DNA of 64,000 nucleotides, taken from positions 1 to 64,000 of the forward strand of contig KI542674.1 of the NCBI GenBank assembly GCA_000496135.1. Direction: 5' to 3'. The stretch comes from Thermoplasmatales archaeon E-plasma (GTDB taxonomy: Archaea > Thermoplasmatota > Thermoplasmata > Thermoplasmatales > Thermoplasmataceae). The notes below the pieces were generated by a model. It was not told the DNA's origin and did no database searches. It worked only from the letters and a program-made list of their open reading frames with translations. The translations under genes and the position numbers were made by a program. Below, one piece after another: positions 6,465-18,732 of the stretch. Position 1 is the stretch's first letter. Every line of letters begins with the position of its first letter.

Positions 6465-6473
6465 ATGGACAAG

Positions 6474-7595
6474 ATGAAAATTGCAATTATTATCCCTTAT
6501 TTACATAAAATAGAAGGAAATAAAACCGCTTTGCTTTTAGCTTCTCAATTAATGAAAGAAGGCAATGATGTTTTTCTAATCATATGGAAAATTAAATCTA
6601 CCATATATGAAGATTTAACAGAAAAATACCCTGATTTGAAAATAAAATACCATAAAATATTGAAGAAGGGAAAATTTGGAATTATATTCGCGATTAAGTA
6701 TCAACTATTAAAAGGAGTGGATCGTAAATTATCAAATATGATTTTAAACGAAGAGAAATCCTCCATGTTTGATTTTGTTATTGTCCCCTCAAATGAGGGG
6801 AAGTGGATAGGACAATACATCAAAAAGAGCGAACTGAAAGAAAAACCAATCACCATGGTCACAGTTATGGAACTTCATGAAAACGGTATGCTAATGTATC
6901 ATAGAAAGAAGGGTATTAAAATTGCATCGCTTCTATTTTATCCACTTTTTTTTATTCTGCAAATTTTCGAAGATGAGCGAATCAAATCCTTCGATATCAT
7001 AACTGTTAATTCAAAATGGACTGCAAATTCACTTTCATATTTCTATGGCCTAAATTCTCAAATCGTAGTTAACCACTATGATTCTGAAGTCTTTAAAGTT
7101 CATAAAGAATATGAAAAGATTGACGTGAAATATATTGCAGTTCCAACTATAAGCATTACAGAAAAACACAAACGAATAATACAAAAACTCTTAAAAGATG
7201 GAATTAACATAATCGCCTTCGGAAAAAGAAAAATTGACACTGAAAATTATCTTGGATTTGTAACCGATGAAAAATTGAGAGATATACTAACAAATGCATC
7301 AGCAACTCTGTTTCTGTTTGATTATGAGGCGTTTGGTCTGATCCCGCTTGAATCTCTTATTTGCGGAACACCTGTTATCACAGAACCTAAACTCGGGGTA
7401 TTTGCAGAATACAATGACTGCCCTGATGTACACTTTGCAGAAAAATATGAAGATATAAAAAAACTTTGTAATAGCTTTTTGAATTCAGAAAAATCGTCTG
7501 AATCCATAAAAAGATGCATTGAATGGGCCAAACAATATGATCCAGAAATAGTTACAAAAAAAATATTACATGCATATGAAAATGCAAGGAAATAG
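6474..7595 (+). CDS. Glycosyltransferase family 4 (GT-B fold)
   Basis: A 373-aa GT-B enzyme. The N-terminus MKIAIIIPYLHKIEGNKTALLLASQLMK is the typical first strand and acceptor-side helix. The C-terminal domain carries ATLFLFDYEAFGLIPLESLICGTPVI with the E-x7-E retaining-GT motif. The ATG at 6474 is preferred to the in-frame ATG at 6465 because family members start with MKI and a TTTAAATA box about 20-25 bases upstream suits a leaderless transcript. The likely role is transfer of a sugar from a nucleotide donor during surface-glycan synthesis; the specificity is unknown. It is followed within 75 bases by the membrane glycosyltransferase cluster. Confidence 0.8.
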   Translation: MKIAIIIPYLHKIEGNKTALLLASQLMKEGNDVFLIIWKIKSTIYEDLTEKYPDLKIKYHKILKKGKFGIIFAIKYQLLKGVDRKLSNMILNEEKSSMFDFVIVPSNEGKWIGQYIKKSELKEKPITMVTVMELHENGMLMYHRKKGIKIASLLFYPLFFILQIFEDERIKSFDIITVNSKWTANSLSYFYGLNSQIVVNHYDSEVFKVHKEYEKIDVKYIAVPTISITEKHKRIIQKLLKDGINIIAFGKRKIDTENYLGFVTDEKLRDILTNASATLFLFDYEAFGLIPLESLICGTPVITEPKLGVFAEYNDCPDVHFAEKYEDIKKLCNSFLNSEKSSESIKRCIEWAKQYDPEIVTKKILHAYENARK

Positions 7596-7669: not shown

Positions 7670-9958
7670 ATGAGTGCAGATACTGAAATATCAGGAAAAG
7701 TAGGTGTTGAGATCCTCCGAAGAGGAAGTATGATTGCAATCGGAGCCTTTTACATATTTATTGGAAATCAACTGTGGGGTCAGGGAGGATATATAAATCT
7801 CATTAGCTTAACTGGTTTATTCATTCTTCTTTTTAGTGCTGCTTTACTTTTCATACTTGCTTTCTATGGATTTTCAAATGAAAAATGGGCAAAAAGGTCA
7901 TTGCTTATTGCAGTTCTTCCTGGAATACTTGCAATGTTTATTTCATTTTCCCAATTCTATCCGACTTTCGGAACTGACGAAATTGCAATTGACAACTATT
8001 CAGCATATCTCTTTTTACATGGGATCAACCCATATATATATCCAAATGTATCAAATTTTTTGAGCTTTTCAGGTCTTCCCGGATCATATGTGACACCTGA
8101 GCTAAATGGAGGGCATATTAATTATATCCAATATCCAGGACTATCTGTCTTGTTGTTTATACCATCAGCACTATTCTCATTTCCCCCTTTTTACATTGTA
8201 TCAGTTTTTTACCTGGCAATGTTTCCTATTACCTATTACTATTTCAGGAAGATAAACAAGCTTGACTTTTTCCCATATGCCGCGCTTATTTTCATGATTA
8301 ACATTAATGCAATTTACTATGCGCTCGGTGGCATTACTGACGCAGTCTGGATTACTTTTTTTGCATTATCATATATATTCAGGAAAAATTACATTATAAG
8401 CGCCATATTTCTTGGTCTTGCCTTTGGTTTTAAACAAACAGTCCTTGTCATAGTTCCATTTTATCTTATTTTCCTTTACAAAGAGGAGTTGAAAAGTTAT
8501 ATAAAGGTTATTAAGTACCTTGTCGCAGGGGGATTAACATTTCTTGTTGTGAATCTACCTTTTATAATAACTGGCCCAATTTCCTGGGCAACATCTGTAC
8601 TTGGCATTGCAACCCAACCTGTTATCGGCAATGGAATTGGTATCTCAATCCTTAGCTTTGCTGGATTTTTCCCGGTGGAAATTTTTGTGTATTATGTATT
8701 GACGCTCATTGCTTTCATGCTTCTGTTTGTATTATATCTAAGGAATTATGAGAAGATGAAATATTCATTTCTGGCTTTCCCGGTTCTAATATTCTTCTTT
8801 TATTACAGATTGTTATTGAACTATGTTATGTATTGGCCATTTATAATGGTTATAGCATTTCCAGACTATTTTGATTCCATAGTAGCCAAGGTATCTGCGA
8901 GGCGAAATGACAGAAGAGAACCGATTATTTTTTTGAAAGAGCTTATTTCTAAGGTCATGAAATTTATTAGAGCCAGATCAACAGGATCGATCGTTCTTGT
9001 TGCCGTTCTCATATCCTCAGGAGTCACATTTTACGGATATGTTGAAGAAACACACAACCCTCTTTCCCTAGATTCGGTAAATAATTTTTCTGACCCTTAT
9101 ATGGTGAATAATTCAATAACGTCAATGAATGTAAAAATAAGTTATTTACCTCAAAGCGGGCAGCCTTCTTCCATACCTGTATACTTTAGAATTTATATGT
9201 ATAATGATATGACAAGTGGTAACGGATTGTTATGGTCCGCTTCAAATAATCAGGTTGGATTTGGTACCTCAAATATAACAATATACCCTGAGGGGCCAGC
9301 AGATTTATTACCTGATAACATTTCCTTCAGACTGATTGCATACTATGGAAATTTCCAGAGTTCTATTGCTGAAAGTGGAAAAGTAGCAGGTTTCTATGGC
9401 TTAAACAACCCTGAATTACTCCTGCCGGTAAATCATTCGGGATGTCTTGTTCCCTATGGATGGAATTATTTCCCCCGGCAGAAAAATGATTATTCCTTTA
9501 CTCCGGGAAATTTAACGTTAGCAATAAGTTCAGAACTTAACAGGGGAAATTACACAAGTTCAATAAACAATCCTGCAATAAATATTTCAAGATTAAGATA
9601 TAATGAAATTATTTATTCCATGGATGCGAAGGTATATATAAACACCAACGAAACTAATATAAATAAACTAGCGATCTCGAATATATCATTCGGAATAAAT
9701 CTAACGTTTGATAATGGGAAAGATTATATGATATTTGAGGAAAATACGACTGGAACAAATTCCCCACAATTGCTTAGTCAGAATGCTATTCTTTTCCCAT
9801 CACTTAATTTGAATTTTACTGAAATATTCAACTATGCTTCAGCCTTACAATGGGATATTCAAAGCTCCCTGACCAATATGAGATTATTTATAAATGAAAA
9901 GAACAACGATATAAATGCATCAGTATCATTTTTTAATATTCGCGAGGTGCATCAATGA
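7670..9958 (+). CDS. GT-C-like multi-pass membrane glycosyltransferase with extracytoplasmic domain (paralogue 1)
   Basis: A 762-aa protein. Residues about 15-450 contain roughly ten or more hydrophobic segments, with an acidic loop motif GTDEIAIDNYSAYLF after an early membrane segment, as in GT-C enzymes that use lipid-linked sugars. After the last membrane segment (about 440-465) comes a roughly 300-residue exported domain rich in N-x-S/T sequons (NNSITSMNVKISY, NISFRLIAYYGN). It is a clear paralogue of the protein at 13026-15347 (TDEIA motif, NPY/DPY, ITDAVWITFFALSYIFRKN versus TTDILWITFLIFAYITRKN). Its stop overlaps the next start in ATGA, so the two are translationally coupled. The likely role is transfer of polyprenyl-phosphate sugars onto surface glycans; this is inferred. 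Confidence 0.72.
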   Translation: MSADTEISGKVGVEILRRGSMIAIGAFYIFIGNQLWGQGGYINLISLTGLFILLFSAALLFILAFYGFSNEKWAKRSLLIAVLPGILAMFISFSQFYPTFGTDEIAIDNYSAYLFLHGINPYIYPNVSNFLSFSGLPGSYVTPELNGGHINYIQYPGLSVLLFIPSALFSFPPFYIVSVFYLAMFPITYYYFRKINKLDFFPYAALIFMININAIYYALGGITDAVWITFFALSYIFRKNYIISAIFLGLAFGFKQTVLVIVPFYLIFLYKEELKSYIKVIKYLVAGGLTFLVVNLPFIITGPISWATSVLGIATQPVIGNGIGISILSFAGFFPVEIFVYYVLTLIAFMLLFVLYLRNYEKMKYSFLAFPVLIFFFYYRLLLNYVMYWPFIMVIAFPDYFDSIVAKVSARRNDRREPIIFLKELISKVMKFIRARSTGSIVLVAVLISSGVTFYGYVEETHNPLSLDSVNNFSDPYMVNNSITSMNVKISYLPQSGQPSSIPVYFRIYMYNDMTSGNGLLWSASNNQVGFGTSNITIYPEGPADLLPDNISFRLIAYYGNFQSSIAESGKVAGFYGLNNPELLLPVNHSGCLVPYGWNYFPRQKNDYSFTPGNLTLAISSELNRGNYTSSINNPAINISRLRYNEIIYSMDAKVYINTNETNINKLAISNISFGINLTFDNGKDYMIFEENTTGTNSPQLLSQNAILFPSLNLNFTEIFNYASALQWDIQSSLTNMRLFINEKNNDINASVSFFNIREVHQ

Positions 9959-11010
9959 CCACCGAATTGTCCATTATAATTCCAACGTACAATGAGAAGG
10001 ATAATATACCCATATTGTTGCACAGAATCGAAGCCCTGGGAATGAACGATGAGATTATCGTAGTAGACGATAACAGCAACGATGGGACAGCTGAGGTCGT
10101 GCAACGGCTATCAAGTAAATATAACAATATTCACCTTATAGAGAGACCTTCAAAGATGGGCATTTCCAGCGCTGTGAAAGATGCATTGGGAATTGCAAGT
10201 GGTAAATACGCACTGGTGATGGATGGAGATTTGCAGCATCCTCCAGAGTTAATACCAAAACTCTTAAGAGAAATAAGAAAGGGAAAGGATATAGTTGTTG
10301 CCTCCAGGTACATGAAAGGAGGAAAGAGTGAGTTTGGTCTCCACAGAAAGATAGTTTCCAAGGTTGCAACCTTCTTTGCCCATATGAGTTTACAGGAAAC
10401 AGAAAAAATTTCAGATCCATTGTCAGGTTTTTTCATTTTCAGGCGCAATCTGATTAAACCGGAAGATATCCAGAGCCAAAGCTATAAGGTCTTGTTGGAG
10501 GTTGTTGTAGCAAGCCATTCCATGAATATATCTGAAATTTCATATCGATTTAACAAAAGAAAGTATGGAAAGAGCAAACTTGGTGGGAAGGAATTCATAA
10601 GATTTATCGCTTTGGTTTTAAAATTGTCAAGATATTCCACTTTGAAATTTCTTGCAGTTGGCCTTACTGGAAGTATAATTCAACTGGGGATACTCGATAT
10701 TCTATATGGAAATTTACATTTAGTTGAATATCTTGCCCTGCCAATTGCAATTGAATCATCTATAATCAGCAATTTCATTTGCAATAATTTCTGGACATAC
10801 AAGAAAAGACTTTCCTCTGGAAGTGCAATGAAGAAATTTTTCCATTATAATATAAGTTCAATGCTGGCGTTTATAATCAACTTCTCAGTAGCTACAATCC
10901 TCACTTTAACCATATTAAGTTCAAATTATCTCATAGCAGATATGGCAGCTATAATAGCTTCATTCGGCGTTAACTTCATGGGAAGCAACACATTTGTATG
11001 GCACCTCTAA
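9955..11010 (+). CDS. Dolichol-phosphate mannose synthase-like GT2 fused to GtrA membrane domain
   Basis: Residues 1-225 are a GT2 catalytic domain of the DPM1 type: LSIIIPTYNEKDN, VVDDNSNDGT, the metal-binding DGDLQHP and DPLSGFFIFRR. Residues about 228-351 form four membrane helices of the GtrA family (STLKFLAVGLTGSIIQLGILD ... NFWTYKKRL ... GSNTFVWHL). The enzyme would load a sugar from a nucleotide donor onto polyprenyl phosphate; GtrA domains are linked to flipping such lipid-linked sugars. It overlaps the GT-C-like gene upstream by 4 bases, which supports a donor-maker/donor-user pair. Its end overlaps the converging DUF2079 gene by 4 bases. The sugar is not readable from sequence. Confidence 0.88.
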   Translation: MTTELSIIIPTYNEKDNIPILLHRIEALGMNDEIIVVDDNSNDGTAEVVQRLSSKYNNIHLIERPSKMGISSAVKDALGIASGKYALVMDGDLQHPPELIPKLLREIRKGKDIVVASRYMKGGKSEFGLHRKIVSKVATFFAHMSLQETEKISDPLSGFFIFRRNLIKPEDIQSQSYKVLLEVVVASHSMNISEISYRFNKRKYGKSKLGGKEFIRFIALVLKLSRYSTLKFLAVGLTGSIIQLGILDILYGNLHLVEYLALPIAIESSIISNFICNNFWTYKKRLSSGSAMKKFFHYNISSMLAFIINFSVATILTLTILSSNYLIADMAAIIASFGVNFMGSNTFVWHL

Positions 11011-12935
11011 TCTGAAACCTGGGTAAGATTTACTGATTGCAGGGTAAATGTACCTGTGAGATTTTCTCCAAAGAGGTCGTACTGAATATTGTTAAAATAG
11101 TAAAGTGAATCCAGTGTTGCACTAAGATTAAGGTAATTCTGTGTGCCACTTACATTGAAAACTTCATTTCCTATACACTGATCAACATGAAGATAATTGG
11201 AAACGGTAAATGCTTGAAGAATCAATTTGCTTCCATTTGAAATACTCAAATTTGAAAAGTGGAATGTTAAGTCAAATTTTCCTGGAGGCATGTTATAGTA
11301 TGGACCATAAATCAAAGTTCCATTTTCATGATTGCTTGAAAATATCTCTCCATTGCTACTCATAACTCCAGTTTTGCCTGGAAATGATCTGAAAGATAAA
11401 TTTTGATCGTATGGTATAAAACTATTGCTAGACTTAACATTAAGTTCATAAAGCGTGATGCCCGCCTTCTCTTCCACAATCCCATAGTCATCATGAGAAA
11501 GGAGAGAATCGATCGTATATAGAGGTGTTGCGTTTTGACCCATTGACGGAAGGATTACTCTGTCAAACCAGGTAGTATAGGGATATGCTAAAATATATTG
11601 TGGAATGAATCCAACGGTCATAATTCCGGGAAGTGTGGATTGGTACCCCTGAACCATGCAAGGCATATTATTCTGGATAAGAATGGATTGATCCCTTGGA
11701 ACAAGTGATATTTCATTATTAAGGTAATTTATATATTTTTGATTTACCGGCGAATATGAGTATTGGTTATCCTTATAAAGTGGATAAATATTTTGTATTT
11801 CGTTCATTAGGGGATTCTTTTGAAATGCAGCATAGGGGCCAATGGATATCCCTGTTATCACAATAATGATCAGTGATATGACAGCTATGAATCTGATAAG
11901 GGAATTTGTTTTCATGGAAATCCATGGCCGTGGGATTCTAACATGGGAAATATGTTTGGAAAGAATAGAAAGTGATGATATAAAACCCAGAAATATCCCT
12001 GGGGCATAAAGCGATGGATATTGAAACCCCTGCTGATAAAAGCCAGGATAATTATTGAATATTGCAAGCATGATACCAGGTATTGCCACCAATAATTCAA
12101 GCGGTGCTATGAACGGTAAAAATAAGAATGGAATGAATGTCCAAACTATGAATTCTATTTTATCAATAACATATCTAACCCCTGTTGAAGAGGCTGGAAA
12201 AAAGTTGGACGTAAAAACATATGTATAGTTAAAGGAGGTTGCCATGTTGACTGCCACGAAAATAAATATTAATAATGCAGAAAAATAAAGAAGTACTCTT
12301 TTGTGATATTTTGTATCAGCAGAATCATTTTTTCTTGCCTGAACGTAAGTAACGAAGATAAAAGCAAAAACTATGAATGGAGACAAGTAATCAGTGAGTG
12401 CAGAAAGAATCAGGAAAATAATGGATAAACGTTTTTTTCCATATTCATGGAACATTACCCCCGTTATGAAAAAGAATGGAAATAATGCCATGAAGTGAAA
12501 ATCAAACCAGAATACTCCCTCTATGGGAAAATACATATTCCACATAATTGCAATAAAAATAGATATGAGAATTGATCTTGTCTTTTTCCATGTAATAAGA
12601 GAGAGGGGGAGAGCAGTAAAAGCGAGAAGTGTATCCTGAAATATGAGAATAATCCACATTTTGGGGTAAATATTATAGAATGGAGCAATTAGAAGATATA
12701 TGAGTTTATTGTATGCTATATTCTTTAACCCTTGAATTGTAAGTGGTAATCCACCGTGAAATACCTGATATAACAATGCTGCATTTACCCCAAGGTCCAT
12801 AGCTGTTAGTTTATATTCGAAGAAACGAATTAGGGAGATTTCTGAGTATATTACTGAAAATATAAGTGATATTATGAACGAAAAAAAGAAAACCTGATAC
12901 TCTTTTTTTGTCCTGAAAATTCTCAATACCTCCAC
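11007..12935 (-). CDS. DUF2079 multi-pass membrane protein
   Basis: A 642-aa membrane protein of the DUF2079 type: the N-terminal helix YQVFFFSFIISLIFSVIYSEI is followed by the family's D-G-N-like motif (TAMDLGVNAALLYQVFHGG) and FWFDFHFMALFPFFFI. There are about ten hydrophobic segments in residues 1-385, then an exported C-terminal domain (about 390-642) with several N-x-S/T sequons. DUF2079 proteins are GT-C-like; the catalytic role is unproven. The GTG start is the first in-frame start, and the gene diverges from paralogue 2 across a 90-base promoter region. Its place between the two GT-C-like paralogues and beside the DPM/GtrA fusion suggests a joint lipid-linked glycan pathway. Confidence 0.75.
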   Translation of the reverse strand: MEVLRIFRTKKEYQVFFFSFIISLIFSVIYSEISLIRFFEYKLTAMDLGVNAALLYQVFHGGLPLTIQGLKNIAYNKLIYLLIAPFYNIYPKMWIILIFQDTLLAFTALPLSLITWKKTRSILISIFIAIMWNMYFPIEGVFWFDFHFMALFPFFFITGVMFHEYGKKRLSIIFLILSALTDYLSPFIVFAFIFVTYVQARKNDSADTKYHKRVLLYFSALLIFIFVAVNMATSFNYTYVFTSNFFPASSTGVRYVIDKIEFIVWTFIPFLFLPFIAPLELLVAIPGIMLAIFNNYPGFYQQGFQYPSLYAPGIFLGFISSLSILSKHISHVRIPRPWISMKTNSLIRFIAVISLIIIVITGISIGPYAAFQKNPLMNEIQNIYPLYKDNQYSYSPVNQKYINYLNNEISLVPRDQSILIQNNMPCMVQGYQSTLPGIMTVGFIPQYILAYPYTTWFDRVILPSMGQNATPLYTIDSLLSHDDYGIVEEKAGITLYELNVKSSNSFIPYDQNLSFRSFPGKTGVMSSNGEIFSSNHENGTLIYGPYYNMPPGKFDLTFHFSNLSISNGSKLILQAFTVSNYLHVDQCIGNEVFNVSGTQNYLNLSATLDSLYYFNNIQYDLFGENLTGTFTLQSVNLTQVSD

Positions 12936-13025
12936 TTATACTTTAAGCCATTGCTCATATAATTCTTTTAGTCTTATGATTTGAAAATGAAATAGATTTT
13001 AAAGTAAATTGCCATTTCCAATTTA

Positions 13026-15347
13026 TTGGAAGCTGAACAGGAACTAACTGAAATAGAAGAGAAAAAGAAGGAAGAATTCAGAAGATTCAAGTTTATAGTA
13101 TTCGGTATTCTTTTTGTCACCTATCCATTTCAGGTATTCCCGTTCATAAGTTATCTGAATATTCCAGCCATAATAGGATTCTGGGTCTCCATTATTATTG
13201 GAGGAATATTGCTCATTTATGTGTTTATACCGAAGTTGAAGATTCCACTTATTGAAAAACTTCCTTATATCGGGCTTATCATAGTTATATTCGAGCTCTT
13301 TCTCGTAGTAATTAGCGTGTTTCCCAATGCCATGACAGACGAAATTGCCGTTTCAACATATGCTGCGAAACTGTTTCTTGAAGGGAAAGACCCATACAGC
13401 AACGCAAATATGGCGCCCGTATTCAATTCATTTTTCAGGCCTGCAGGTTATACTCCAACACTTTTTGGCGGGGTAATGAATACCCTGATATACCCGGGAA
13501 TGTCTGTTATTGCCTTTATACCTGTGGTTGTATTGAATCTGCCCAACTATTCAATGCTCCTTGTCTTTTCAATGGTCGCCTTTGCAGGAGTATTTTACGA
13601 GTATTACAAAAAGAAGATCGTGGATCTGGTACCTTTTCTTGCAGTGATGATTGCCATAGCAGCAGAGATATTTGGATTTTCCATGGCAGGAACGACCGAT
13701 ATCCTATGGATCACATTCCTAATTTTTGCATATATTACAAGAAAGAATCCCTGGCTTTCAGGCATATTCTTTGGTTTAAGTTTATCATCAAAGCAGACCC
13801 CCATTGTAATTCTCCCCTTCTTCCTTTATTTTCTATACAAGGAAAATAAGTCAAAACATATTTCTGTACCGGAATTCCTTATTGGAGCCTTTGCATCATT
13901 TTTTGCAACAAATATACCGTTCTTTATAATGAGTCCAAAGGATTGGCTGAGGAATGTGCTCATTGCAGCGTATCAACCTGTAATAGGCGTTGGCATAGGA
14001 TTCTCGGAACCATCTTTTCTAGGTGTGATAAATATTCCAAGCATTTTCTTCACAACGATGTTTGTGGCCGTGGCAATGTTATTCTTTATTGCATATGTAA
14101 GGTACTTTGACCTGTTGAAGTATGCTTTCTTTGCGTTCCCCATGATTATCTTCATGTTCAACTATCGTGTATTCATCAACTACATTGTTGACTGGACATT
14201 CCTCATATTTCTCATATATCCTGAATACCACGATATGTTCAATAAGAGTATGTACATGAGAAAGGAAATCCACATAGATGTTGTTGCAACACTGAAGGAT
14301 TACAAGAATTTCGTTAAGAAAACATTCTCAAAACACTATGCCATAGCCATAGCTCTAATAGTTGTTTTTGGTCTAGGCACCGGGGGAGCATATGCCCTCT
14401 CCTATGAGAATTCCACATATACCACTTTCCATATCAACTCCATATCGAATATGTCAGATCCCATAGGTATTCCTGGCTATGTTACGGAAATGTCCATGAA
14501 CATATCTTATACTCCACTTTCAAACCCGGGAAACCATACAGCGGTCTACTTCAGAATATTTCCACAGAATCCAGTAGGAGGAAGGTTTAATGGCCTTCTC
14601 TGGAGCACCAATTCAACTCTCTCATACGGATATAACCATATTATAATCAAACCTTCAAGATTCGTTGACTTTCTGCCGCAGAATACTTCATTCAGAATAG
14701 AGGCATATTATGGTTCAGAAACCGGATTTTTTAATGACAGGTCAGGATTTGTTTCAACGGATGGAGAAGCAATGCAGAACTGGATGATGAGCTATCCAAC
14801 GTATGAATCACAGGAACCGTTTCCTGGATGGAATGCAATGTATCATGGAGTTAAAACAGGATTCTATAACTATTCCGGAACAGATGGAATTACACTTTCA
14901 GTTAACACCATAACAAATGGGTCTTTTTCATATTACGGTATTGAAACTCCGCTTAATTTTTCCATGCTTGTCAGGAATAACTATTCCATGTCGTATTATC
15001 AAAGTTCATCGTCTATCTTTAATTCAACCAAAAATATGTCATACGCCACAAGCTTCTCGGGTATCCTTATTTCACTGAATTCAGGTTCTGAGAATATCTG
15101 GGTCACTACTGATAAGAGTTATAACACTGACAACATGACAGTGATACCAACCAATAGCCTGCAGAATATTACCATAATTGACAATAAGATGGTATTTAAT
15201 TATGAGCAAATCAACGATATTCTGCAGAACTATACAGGAATGAATTTCGGAGCATCTGTTGGAACCATTTCGTTCATAGTTGGTAGTGGTTATTCCGGAG
15301 TGCATGTTGATTCAACGTTTTCATCCATTAAATTATTTATCGGATAA
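13026..15347 (+). CDS. GT-C-like multi-pass membrane glycosyltransferase with extracytoplasmic domain (paralogue 2)
   Basis: A 773-aa paralogue of the 7670-9958 protein, with the same order: a charged cytoplasmic N-terminus, about ten membrane segments, an acidic MTDEIAVSTYAAKLF motif at the first external loop, then (from about residue 455) an exported sequon-rich domain (SNMSDPIGIPGYVTEMSMNISY ... SFRIEAYYGSE). The start is TTG at 13026; a TTTTAAAG box about 25-30 bases before it supports a leaderless start there. By inference it uses a polyprenyl-phosphate sugar. The two copies have diverged most in the exported domain, so they may recognise different acceptors. Confidence 0.72.
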   Translation: MEAEQELTEIEEKKKEEFRRFKFIVFGILFVTYPFQVFPFISYLNIPAIIGFWVSIIIGGILLIYVFIPKLKIPLIEKLPYIGLIIVIFELFLVVISVFPNAMTDEIAVSTYAAKLFLEGKDPYSNANMAPVFNSFFRPAGYTPTLFGGVMNTLIYPGMSVIAFIPVVVLNLPNYSMLLVFSMVAFAGVFYEYYKKKIVDLVPFLAVMIAIAAEIFGFSMAGTTDILWITFLIFAYITRKNPWLSGIFFGLSLSSKQTPIVILPFFLYFLYKENKSKHISVPEFLIGAFASFFATNIPFFIMSPKDWLRNVLIAAYQPVIGVGIGFSEPSFLGVINIPSIFFTTMFVAVAMLFFIAYVRYFDLLKYAFFAFPMIIFMFNYRVFINYIVDWTFLIFLIYPEYHDMFNKSMYMRKEIHIDVVATLKDYKNFVKKTFSKHYAIAIALIVVFGLGTGGAYALSYENSTYTTFHINSISNMSDPIGIPGYVTEMSMNISYTPLSNPGNHTAVYFRIFPQNPVGGRFNGLLWSTNSTLSYGYNHIIIKPSRFVDFLPQNTSFRIEAYYGSETGFFNDRSGFVSTDGEAMQNWMMSYPTYESQEPFPGWNAMYHGVKTGFYNYSGTDGITLSVNTITNGSFSYYGIETPLNFSMLVRNNYSMSYYQSSSSIFNSTKNMSYATSFSGILISLNSGSENIWVTTDKSYNTDNMTVIPTNSLQNITIIDNKMVFNYEQINDILQNYTGMNFGASVGTISFIVGSGYSGVHVDSTFSSIKLFIG

Positions 15348-16323: not shown

Positions 16324-18732
16324 TTAACTTTTTTTATATGGGCATCTGTGCCTGAGATGAATGAAGCCAACCTCTGAGAGGCAGAGAGGGCACATTCTCA
16401 AATATCTGACCCGGATAAATGCGCCCATACATATCATAACACCCCCGGCTGCGATTATCGGGTAAATCTTATTCAAAATATCTGTTGGCGGATTATTTGC
16501 CGCCGCCCCTTTATGGAGAGATATCACTATAGTCTGATTCATCTCATATATGAATATGGTAGCTGTGTAAATCTGACTGTTTCCGGAGTAAATTGACAGA
16601 CTGTAATTCCCCATTTGAAGTGAAAAATTTAATGTTCTGTTATCCGGTACATAAACGAGGTTACCAATAGATAGATAGCTATTGTTCCTCTCCGGATATC
16701 CGGATATTTCAATACTAACATTTGCTATAATTTTTGAGAAAGTTATGTTATTTAACAAACCTGGTTTTTCATCCAGATTACGGTTAACCGGATAAAACAT
16801 TCTCTGATCCGGAATGTAAATTTTTGCCGTGTTTACCGGCAAAAAAATATCCATTAAGTTTGTTGATGAATGAAAGGGTTCTCCATCCGCAAATACTAAC
16901 CATCCCTTCGACATGGATAAATTGACTGCATAAAGTGAAAACTCATGAATGGCTCCGGGAATTGTAATGCTTTGCGATCCTGTACCGGTTTCAATGTTCA
17001 ATGTGTTGTTATATTGCAGCGACCATGCAATTATCCCGTTAGTGGTGTTTTGAATCAGTGGAAAAGTGAATGTGTGATTATACCATTCCATTGAATTTAA
17101 ACTTAATTCAGATACTTTGAATTTGTAATACGCAGAATAGGAAACCATTCTGAATGAAAGATTCATGATCAAATTATTCGAATTTTCATATAGATCATTT
17201 ATGACAGCAGATACTTCCAGAGAGTTGTTATATGCACGAGAATTAATCCTTACATCTACCATTGAAACATTCACAGAATAATTTTCCACATATCTGTGAC
17301 CGGAAAACATTTCATCAGGATTCAGTGAAAAGTAAAAATTCCAATCGCTGTAGGGAAGAATGAAGTCTGCAATTGATTTTACGGATGAATTCATTATCTT
17401 ATATTCCACGAGAGCGGTTGAGTATGTTCTGAAGCAATTCTGAACTTCATGTAAAAGATTGTTTGCCTTTCCCTCCATTGCTGTAATATTAACAGATATT
17501 GTGGATACTTGGGATGCCAGTTCAGATGGCTCTGCATTGGCAATTACAACGTATGAAATGTTTGATTTAATTCTCTGGAGAACCTCTGAATAAATAAAGA
17601 AAGATGAGTTTTCAGAAGAAATAATTGGAGTTATCCCTGAATTACCGGCATAGAAAGCAGTTGATATGAAATTTACCCATGAGTTACCGTCCAATATTAT
17701 CCCCCTCTTCAGAGGGTTAATAATCCCATTCATGGAATACCGGCTCTGGTTATTGGAAATCAAACTGTCAGAAACCATATTCATTGTACTGTTATTGAAA
17801 ATAATGAAGTTGTGACTGGTACCGTTAAGATAAAGCGAATCATTTGACAGAAATACAATGGATGATTTCCATACGGTTATGTTTTCTCCATAGGGGATAG
17901 TAATGTTAACCGGAACTTTTCCATTGATAGGATATGAATTTAAACTGGAAAAGTGATTATCCTGGTATACCAGATTAATGCATGTGCTGTTTCCATCCAT
18001 TACAATGGATCTGTTGATATAACCTGACGACCCGTTTCCCAAACTGATTCTAATGCTTCCTGTAACATTTCCCAGCGTGTAATTTATTTTAATTGCCTCT
18101 GAATCAATGAATGGTATGAAAGGATTCAATCGGGTCCCTGAATATTCATACGTATGGGTTATGCTTATGGGTTGCCCGTTCTGGTTCATGGTATAAACGT
18201 CAACGAAAGATGCTGAAGATGCATCGGTTACATTTAACGACGATAATGTGATGTTTCCCGTATCGTTACTGAAAGTGGTTTTCATGGGTAGGTATCTGTA
18301 AGAATGTGTGAACGAACTGTTCATAATTCCCAAATTTCTTCCGGAGACATCAAAGGTACCTGAAAAATCCAACCTTGAACTGTTTATGACCAGAGAGGTT
18401 CCATGGATGGAAGTATCATTGAAATCCAGAAGCGATCCATACGTTAGAATGGAGGAATTTACAAGAGTTAAATTTCCATTGATGGTGAAAGAACTGATCC
18501 CGGATTTTGCCTCAAAAACAATATTGGTATTGAGAAAGATAACGGATGAATCCGCATCCGTTGTGATATTACCGGCTGAATAAAATGTTGAGTTATATCC
18601 CATGCCTCCTATTGTCTGATTTCCAATTATTATTGTTGAAGATTCTGCACTGATACCTTTGTTAACGGAATGATGCACTCCGTAAGAAGAGATCAGAAGG
18701 AATAAAAGAACGATTACGGGTATAACACGCAT
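16324..18732 (-). CDS. Large exported, membrane-anchored protein with a C-terminal Cys/His cluster
   Basis: An 802-aa protein with an N-terminal signal sequence (MRVIPVIVLLFLLISSYG), a long predicted extracellular region of beta-rich, repetitive character (SSVIFLNTNIVFEAKSG, FTINGNLTLVNSSIL) with many N-x-S/T sequons, then one membrane helix near the C-terminus (YPIIAAGGVMICMGAFI). After the helix comes a short tail, CPLCLSEVGFIHLRHRCPY, with a C-x2-C and H-x2-H-x-C arrangement that could bind zinc on the cytoplasmic side. The N-terminal repeats resemble parallel beta-helix surface proteins. Function is unknown; I recognise no enzyme motif. Confidence 0.7.
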   Translation of the reverse strand: MRVIPVIVLLFLLISSYGVHHSVNKGISAESSTIIIGNQTIGGMGYNSTFYSAGNITTDADSSVIFLNTNIVFEAKSGISSFTINGNLTLVNSSILTYGSLLDFNDTSIHGTSLVINSSRLDFSGTFDVSGRNLGIMNSSFTHSYRYLPMKTTFSNDTGNITLSSLNVTDASSASFVDVYTMNQNGQPISITHTYEYSGTRLNPFIPFIDSEAIKINYTLGNVTGSIRISLGNGSSGYINRSIVMDGNSTCINLVYQDNHFSSLNSYPINGKVPVNITIPYGENITVWKSSIVFLSNDSLYLNGTSHNFIIFNNSTMNMVSDSLISNNQSRYSMNGIINPLKRGIILDGNSWVNFISTAFYAGNSGITPIISSENSSFFIYSEVLQRIKSNISYVVIANAEPSELASQVSTISVNITAMEGKANNLLHEVQNCFRTYSTALVEYKIMNSSVKSIADFILPYSDWNFYFSLNPDEMFSGHRYVENYSVNVSMVDVRINSRAYNNSLEVSAVINDLYENSNNLIMNLSFRMVSYSAYYKFKVSELSLNSMEWYNHTFTFPLIQNTTNGIIAWSLQYNNTLNIETGTGSQSITIPGAIHEFSLYAVNLSMSKGWLVFADGEPFHSSTNLMDIFLPVNTAKIYIPDQRMFYPVNRNLDEKPGLLNNITFSKIIANVSIEISGYPERNNSYLSIGNLVYVPDNRTLNFSLQMGNYSLSIYSGNSQIYTATIFIYEMNQTIVISLHKGAAANNPPTDILNKIYPIIAAGGVMICMGAFIRVRYLRMCPLCLSEVGFIHLRHRCPYKKS

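Follow-up and report, generated by a model that had tools for sequence, protein, structure and literature searches.

What does a locus make when it encodes a lipid-linked sugar synthase, a GtrA-type membrane domain and several large membrane proteins with exported tails side by side, and which of these parts depend on one another? The question arises in a 64,000-nucleotide stretch of DNA (the window) from Thermoplasmatales archaeon E-plasma, whose genome consists of 1.66 Mb in 8 contigs. Thermoplasmatales mostly lack an S-layer and live at very low pH behind a tetraether lipoglycan containing mannose and glucose (PMC12448462); a search of the literature found no gene for lipoglycan synthesis in this order. 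The role of GtrA, flipping of lipid-linked sugars or something else, is disputed (e.g., Rv3789; PMC7389260), and flipping is described as thought or proposed, not demonstrated. A preliminary description had read the locus as a four-gene lipid-linked glycan module, with two GT-C-like paralogues (here M1 and M2), a fusion of dolichyl-phosphate-mannose (DPM) synthase with GtrA, and a DUF2079 protein. The gene positions it gave are exact against the open reading frames. The features are:

70-1359, + strand: IS110-family transposase at the window start (side observation)
6465-7595, + strand: GT4-type glycosyltransferase, 376 aa (Glycos_transf_1, 7.5e-11)
7670-9958, + strand: M1, GT-C-like membrane protein, 762 aa (open reading frame; homology to M2)
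9955-11010, + strand: DPM/GtrA, dolichyl-phosphate-mannose-synthase-like fusion, 351 aa (Pfam; match to 5MLZ)
9955-10629, + strand: GT2 domain of the fusion (Pfam)
10645-11001, + strand: GtrA/DPMS transmembrane domain of the fusion (Pfam)
11007-12935, - strand: DUF2079 membrane protein, 642 aa (Pfam PF09852)
13026-15347, + strand: M2, GT-C-like membrane protein, 773 aa, TTG start (model and Foldseek)
16324-18732, - strand: exported sequon-rich neighbour, 802 aa, candidate glycosylated surface protein (sequon count)

M1 and the fusion overlap in the letters ATGA, in agreement with the translational coupling proposed for them. The fusion and the DUF2079 gene are convergent, their stops sharing four bases tail to tail, and M2 is divergent from the DUF2079 gene. 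M1 is preceded on its strand, at a distance of 74 bp, by a GT4-type gene that is probably part of one transcription unit with it; such a gene also precedes M1 in genome G003 (locus L060; 63% identity).

M1 and M2 share one aligned stretch, 479 residues long, with 36% identity and 285 bits, and are 31% identical over most of their length. The preliminary description of paired paralogues is thus right as to homology. As a local pair they fare worse: the M tree sets M1 near sequences of family f14 and genus g19 and M2 with genus g12 (genera and families are given here by number). Because these are different old branches, the two are ancient paralogues, and a recent duplication is rejected. Each protein has a membrane half (aa 1-450 in M1, aa 1-463 in M2) and an exported tail of about 310 residues, the sequon-rich aa 451-762 in M1 and the beta-sandwich aa 464-773 in M2. 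The number of N-X-S/T sequons is 14 in each tail, where composition would predict about 7 (P=0.004 for either one), and 2-3 in the membrane halves. D105 of the TDE motif (M2 numbering), in a loop that follows the third helix, is invariant in 44/44 homologues, and E106 is kept in at least 90% of them. The helix count and the sequon-bearing tail suggest that this acidic loop is external. The motif and the exported, sequon-rich domain had both been recognized earlier. The plan had also been called unusual, which it is not: a membrane half joined to an exported domain is known in GT-C enzymes, and extracellular carbohydrate-binding domains are described in AftD and possibly YfhO (PMC8035078).

The membrane halves do appear to have the GT-C fold on which the earlier reading depended, M2 by its model and M1 through its homology to M2. 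The AlphaFold2 model of M2, made from 44 homologues, has a pLDDT of 83 and a pTM of 0.80. Its membrane half finds GPI mannosyltransferase 1 (GPI-MT1) and ALG3, both of which use Dol-P-Man, and PIG-U as best Foldseek matches, each with probability 1.00; PimE is also listed. The E-values are modest (best 1.7e-3) and the TM-score by target is about 0.5. In this model, then, the best solved matches are users of dolichyl- or polyprenyl-phosphate-mannose (GPI-MT1, ALG3, PimE). From sequence only, the M profile finds GPI mannosyltransferase 1 at 1.4e-7, and 15/44 M members match Pfam GT87. M2 itself scores 8e-5 and 22.9 bits against GT87 (PF09594), under the 25-bit gathering cut-off; one g12 homologue is above it (28.0 vs 25), and M1 has no significant Pfam match. 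M proteins are like GT87/PimE and GPI-MT1 in their predicted GT-C fold, the acidic external-loop residue and weak to moderate sequence matches. They differ in that the acidic loop is preceded by three predicted helices and the exported part comprises one or two beta-sandwich domains, and M1 and M2 miss the cut-off that GT87 members reach. An identity as AglB/STT3 was rejected: no STT3 domain was found among the 44 M members, and an STT3-type gene lies elsewhere in the genome.

Structure prediction of the exported domains, proposed earlier as a check, gives beta-sandwiches for the tails of both M2 and the DUF2079 protein. The M2 tail model matches GH11/GH12 and CBM folds. Among 21 long forms, the invariant or nearly invariant tail columns include no acidic residue; there is none in set A2 and one in the narrower set A4. 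Since the conserved columns are nearly without acidic residues, a lectin-like tail is more likely than a hydrolytic one, and an active glycosidase of GH11/GH12-like fold was rejected on the same counts.

The fusion is what it had been taken for, with Pfam matches to Glycos_transf_2 (4e-37) and GtrA_DPMS_TM (8.5e-19). A GT2 catalytic domain is followed by a GtrA-type transmembrane domain, the architecture of Pyrococcus furiosus DPMS (5MLZ; PMC5526996), which is the closest solved protein (full length, same domain order, E 2.1e-70). The catalytic and donor residues scored were E12, D39, D89, D91, Q93, H94, R117, R131, S135, R202 and K208 (numbering of PMC5526996), and the window protein has 11/11. 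Similarity to DPMS suggests mannose as the donor sugar, although it could be another hexose. Unlike the P. furiosus enzyme, the fusion is ATGA-coupled to a GT-C gene, and many of its relatives have sequences that indicate a catalytically dead enzyme. No other GT2+GtrA fusion was found in the source genome, which also has a second, stand-alone GtrA (C2:346777) and a separate DPM-like GT2 (C3:768069). A single frame of GT2, GtrA and SIS_2 was seen at L025:4521-6089 (- strand), either a real fusion or an assembly effect.

The gene between M1 and M2 is a DUF2079 member by its Pfam score (PF09852, 1.5e-24, 87.4 bits vs a 28.2 cut-off). The model of its product (pLDDT 73) has a GT-C-like membrane part that matches catalytic chains of OST and an extracytoplasmic part that ends in a beta-sandwich, known here by prediction only, whose matches are CBM6/16/22-type modules. 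A tail similar to those of M1 and M2 had been proposed. The tail is indeed exported and sequon-rich (9 sequons, P=0.009), but in sequence it is unrelated to the M tails by hhalign (probability 0.07%). Profile comparison gave no convincing link between DUF2079 and M, in membrane part or tail, and homologous tails were rejected as unsupported, the shared modelling as a beta-sandwich being all that links them. The literature searched held nothing that ties DUF2079 to a glycosyltransferase.

How general this arrangement is was examined in 77 genomes from 19 genera of the family, many of them incomplete MAGs. M genes are found in 18/19 genera. In 57/68 cases a long GtrA gene has an M gene no more than 3.5 kb away, in 56 of them on the same strand, compared with an expected adjacency to M of about 0.8% per gene; some of the 11 without a neighbouring M stand at the end of a contig or on a different one. 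Four-base or similar overlaps between module genes recur in relatives. Close DUF2079 relatives occur within 10 kb of M in 31/51 cases, representing 8 genera, and M, GtrA and DUF2079 are found together (within 10 kb) in g1, g2, g12 and g15; the g2 genome G299 also contains a contig resembling g1. The only genus with neither M nor long GtrA is g13 (genomes G015 and G031), which could be Picrophilus, the one genus with an S-layer (PMC5155288). Outside the family, order and orientation in f14, which belongs to the same class, are identical to the window, with M followed by DPM/GtrA and then by DUF2079 on the opposite strand (L112, L113, L115); at L111 two frames together make up the fusion. The idea that M is confined to Thermoplasmataceae was abandoned in view of strong matches in f14 and weaker ones in f27. 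No M was found in f2-f6, families sampled from the same order. The cluster is therefore conserved, as the preliminary description had required of a true module.

Other genes recur around these loci. Where the window has M2, f14 has a PKD-domain protein on the far side of DUF2079 (L111:2622-4448, L115:14176-15972). Upstream of M in g2, g3, g8, g10, g14 and g15 there is another conserved gene, for a membrane protein of about 510-620 aa (L045:6198-7739, L050:7831-9411, L047:8853-10706 and relatives); one member matches PMT_2, and the gene probably encodes a further GT-C enzyme of the module. Behind the DPM/GtrA gene, g2, g3, g10, g14 and g15 have a stand-alone GtrA of about 155 aa (e.g., L050:13076-13522), which may point to a GtrA heterodimer. 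At L121:6161-7114 (+ strand) a gene for an M48 peptidase separates the GtrA gene from the first M gene. On G000:C3, at about 847.5-867.2 kb, DUF2079 and GT2 genes each occur twice, about 12 kb apart; the copies score identically and are probably the result of a recent tandem duplication or of a repeat in the assembly.

The fusion is not uniformly preserved across the family. The eleven residues were scored in 17 genera with a readable fusion, Q93 or S93 being counted as kept; g7, with a 555-residue frame in which the GT2 domain is present, was left out of the loss count. Ten genera (g1, 2, 3, 4, 6, 8, 11, 12, 16, 17) keep 10-11/11, and seven (g5, 9, 10, 14, 15, 18, 19) keep 0-5/11, with DxD, Q/H, the R117 region, R131 and S135 mostly absent. 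The N-domain of g10, g14 and g15 has lost the DxD but is plainly recognisable as GT2 (hhalign 99.85%). For g5, g9, g18 and g19 GT2 homology was undetected (hhalign probability 0.5-33%), and since it could not be shown, these N-domains are termed unrecognisable rather than decayed. The GtrA half of the same seven genera retains 10-12/12 hallmarks, the 12 columns having been picked as conserved in both intact and loser sets, and it is mostly still beside M, with exceptions in three g9 and two g14 genomes. In each of these genera, the genomes that were inspected carry a separate DPM whose catalytic set is kept (in some with a change at D39); it adjoins or is near the degenerate fusion in g14, g15 and G012 (g10). 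A simple pattern search gave an odd motif at L140, where the aligned catalytic residues are intact.

On the M tree the losers occupy at least three branches (g10+g14+g15; g9+g18+g19; g5), and as judged by these residues GT2 catalysis has been lost at least three times. An intact GT2 is likely ancestral because Pyrococcus and f14 keep the DxD. What is new, at the level of sequence, is that in 7 genera the GT2 half no longer has its catalytic residues or cannot be recognised at all, while the GtrA half and, mostly, its adjacency to M persist. Because GtrA stays beside M after GT2 loss, GtrA and not DPM catalysis is the constant partner of M, which speaks for a role of GtrA together with the GT-C enzyme, beyond that of an anchor for the synthase. 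In its strongest form, GtrA would be an obligate donor-delivery subunit of M, for flipping or docking, and the DPM half a dispensable passenger that became a pseudoenzyme at least three times; this is put forward tentatively, with somewhat less than even confidence.

An alternative is that the N-domains of the seven genera are neofunctionalised and not dead, handling another activated sugar or acting in regulation, in which case retention of GtrA would tell little. They are intact reading frames under constraint (55% identity between two genomes of one genus, 56-66% in several other within-genus pairs) and must therefore have some function; because they are still conserved, it is probably structural or regulatory. 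Against neofunctionalisation, however, few of the scored residues are left, four of the genera show no detectable GT2 homology, and an apparently competent separate DPM is at hand, next to the fusion itself in g14, g15 and part of g10; it is considered unlikely. Far less credible, and very improbable overall, is that M proteins are carbohydrate receptors or, like PIG-U in GPI transamidase, non-catalytic subunits of GT-C fold. The structural search does place PIG-U near the top, but the invariant D105 and near-invariant E106 after the third helix are what an active GT-C would have, M members match GT87, and the pairing with donor-side genes is constant.

A third possibility accepts that M1 and M2 are enzymes and restricts them to N-glycans: modelled on Haloferax AglS, they would add late sugars from Dol-P-Man to a dolichol-linked oligosaccharide or glycoprotein handled by AglB, with no lipoglycan involved. 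AglS is itself an archaeal mannosyltransferase known to use Dol-P-Man (PMC4973528), the genome has an STT3/AglB-type gene, and a very sequon-rich exported protein is encoded close by. The absence of M from f2-f6, where N-glycosylation is expected to be general, speaks against so narrow a role, and it is regarded as somewhat unlikely.

The reading preferred here, and held with good though not full confidence, is that the four genes together encode a multi-component module for transmembrane glycosylation in an archaeon. The GT-C model of M2, the PfDPMS-type fusion with all its catalytic residues and the linkage of M to GtrA support the earlier view of a lipid-linked glycan module. In the proposed mechanism the GT2 domain would work at the cytoplasmic face and charge dolichyl phosphate with a hexose, most likely mannose, taken from a nucleotide sugar. 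By presenting or flipping the lipid-P-sugar, the GtrA domain would then make it available at the outer face and to M, as is suggested by an M-GtrA pairing that is constant even where GT2 is dead. M1, M2 and probably the DUF2079 protein, as putative GT-C glycosyltransferases of predicted fold with a conserved external-loop Asp, would use this donor to lengthen a glycan at the cell surface, which their lectin-like exported tails would hold. As acceptor, a mannose-containing tetraether lipoglycan or an N-glycan is most likely. Sequons are usable in principle because an STT3/AglB-type gene is present, and the 802-aa neighbour, with 42 sequons vs 17 expected and a Cys in its C-terminal end, is a possible acceptor or client; its homologue directly adjoins an M gene in g12 (L043, L044).

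The nearest known kind of system is the three-component one, GtrA-GtrB-Gtr(type) or CsbB-GtcA-YfhO (PMC8035078, PMC7389260), with a GT2 lipid-P-sugar synthase, GtrA and a GT-C, some with a lectin-like domain. The same three parts are encoded together in the window and at the 57 linked long GtrA loci. Unlike those systems, the locus is archaeal, synthase and GtrA are fused, there are two to three GT-C enzymes per site, and the family repeatedly loses the synthase half as GtrA stays with the GT-C.

For the Thermoplasmatales, these genes are strong candidates for synthesis of the lipoglycan behind which the cells live. The death of the synthase half while GtrA stays beside the same GT-C makes the disputed role of GtrA testable. 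If the donor-delivery reading is true, the family would hold natural GT-C partners of the type "GtrA without synthase", which separate the two functions of DPMS fusions.
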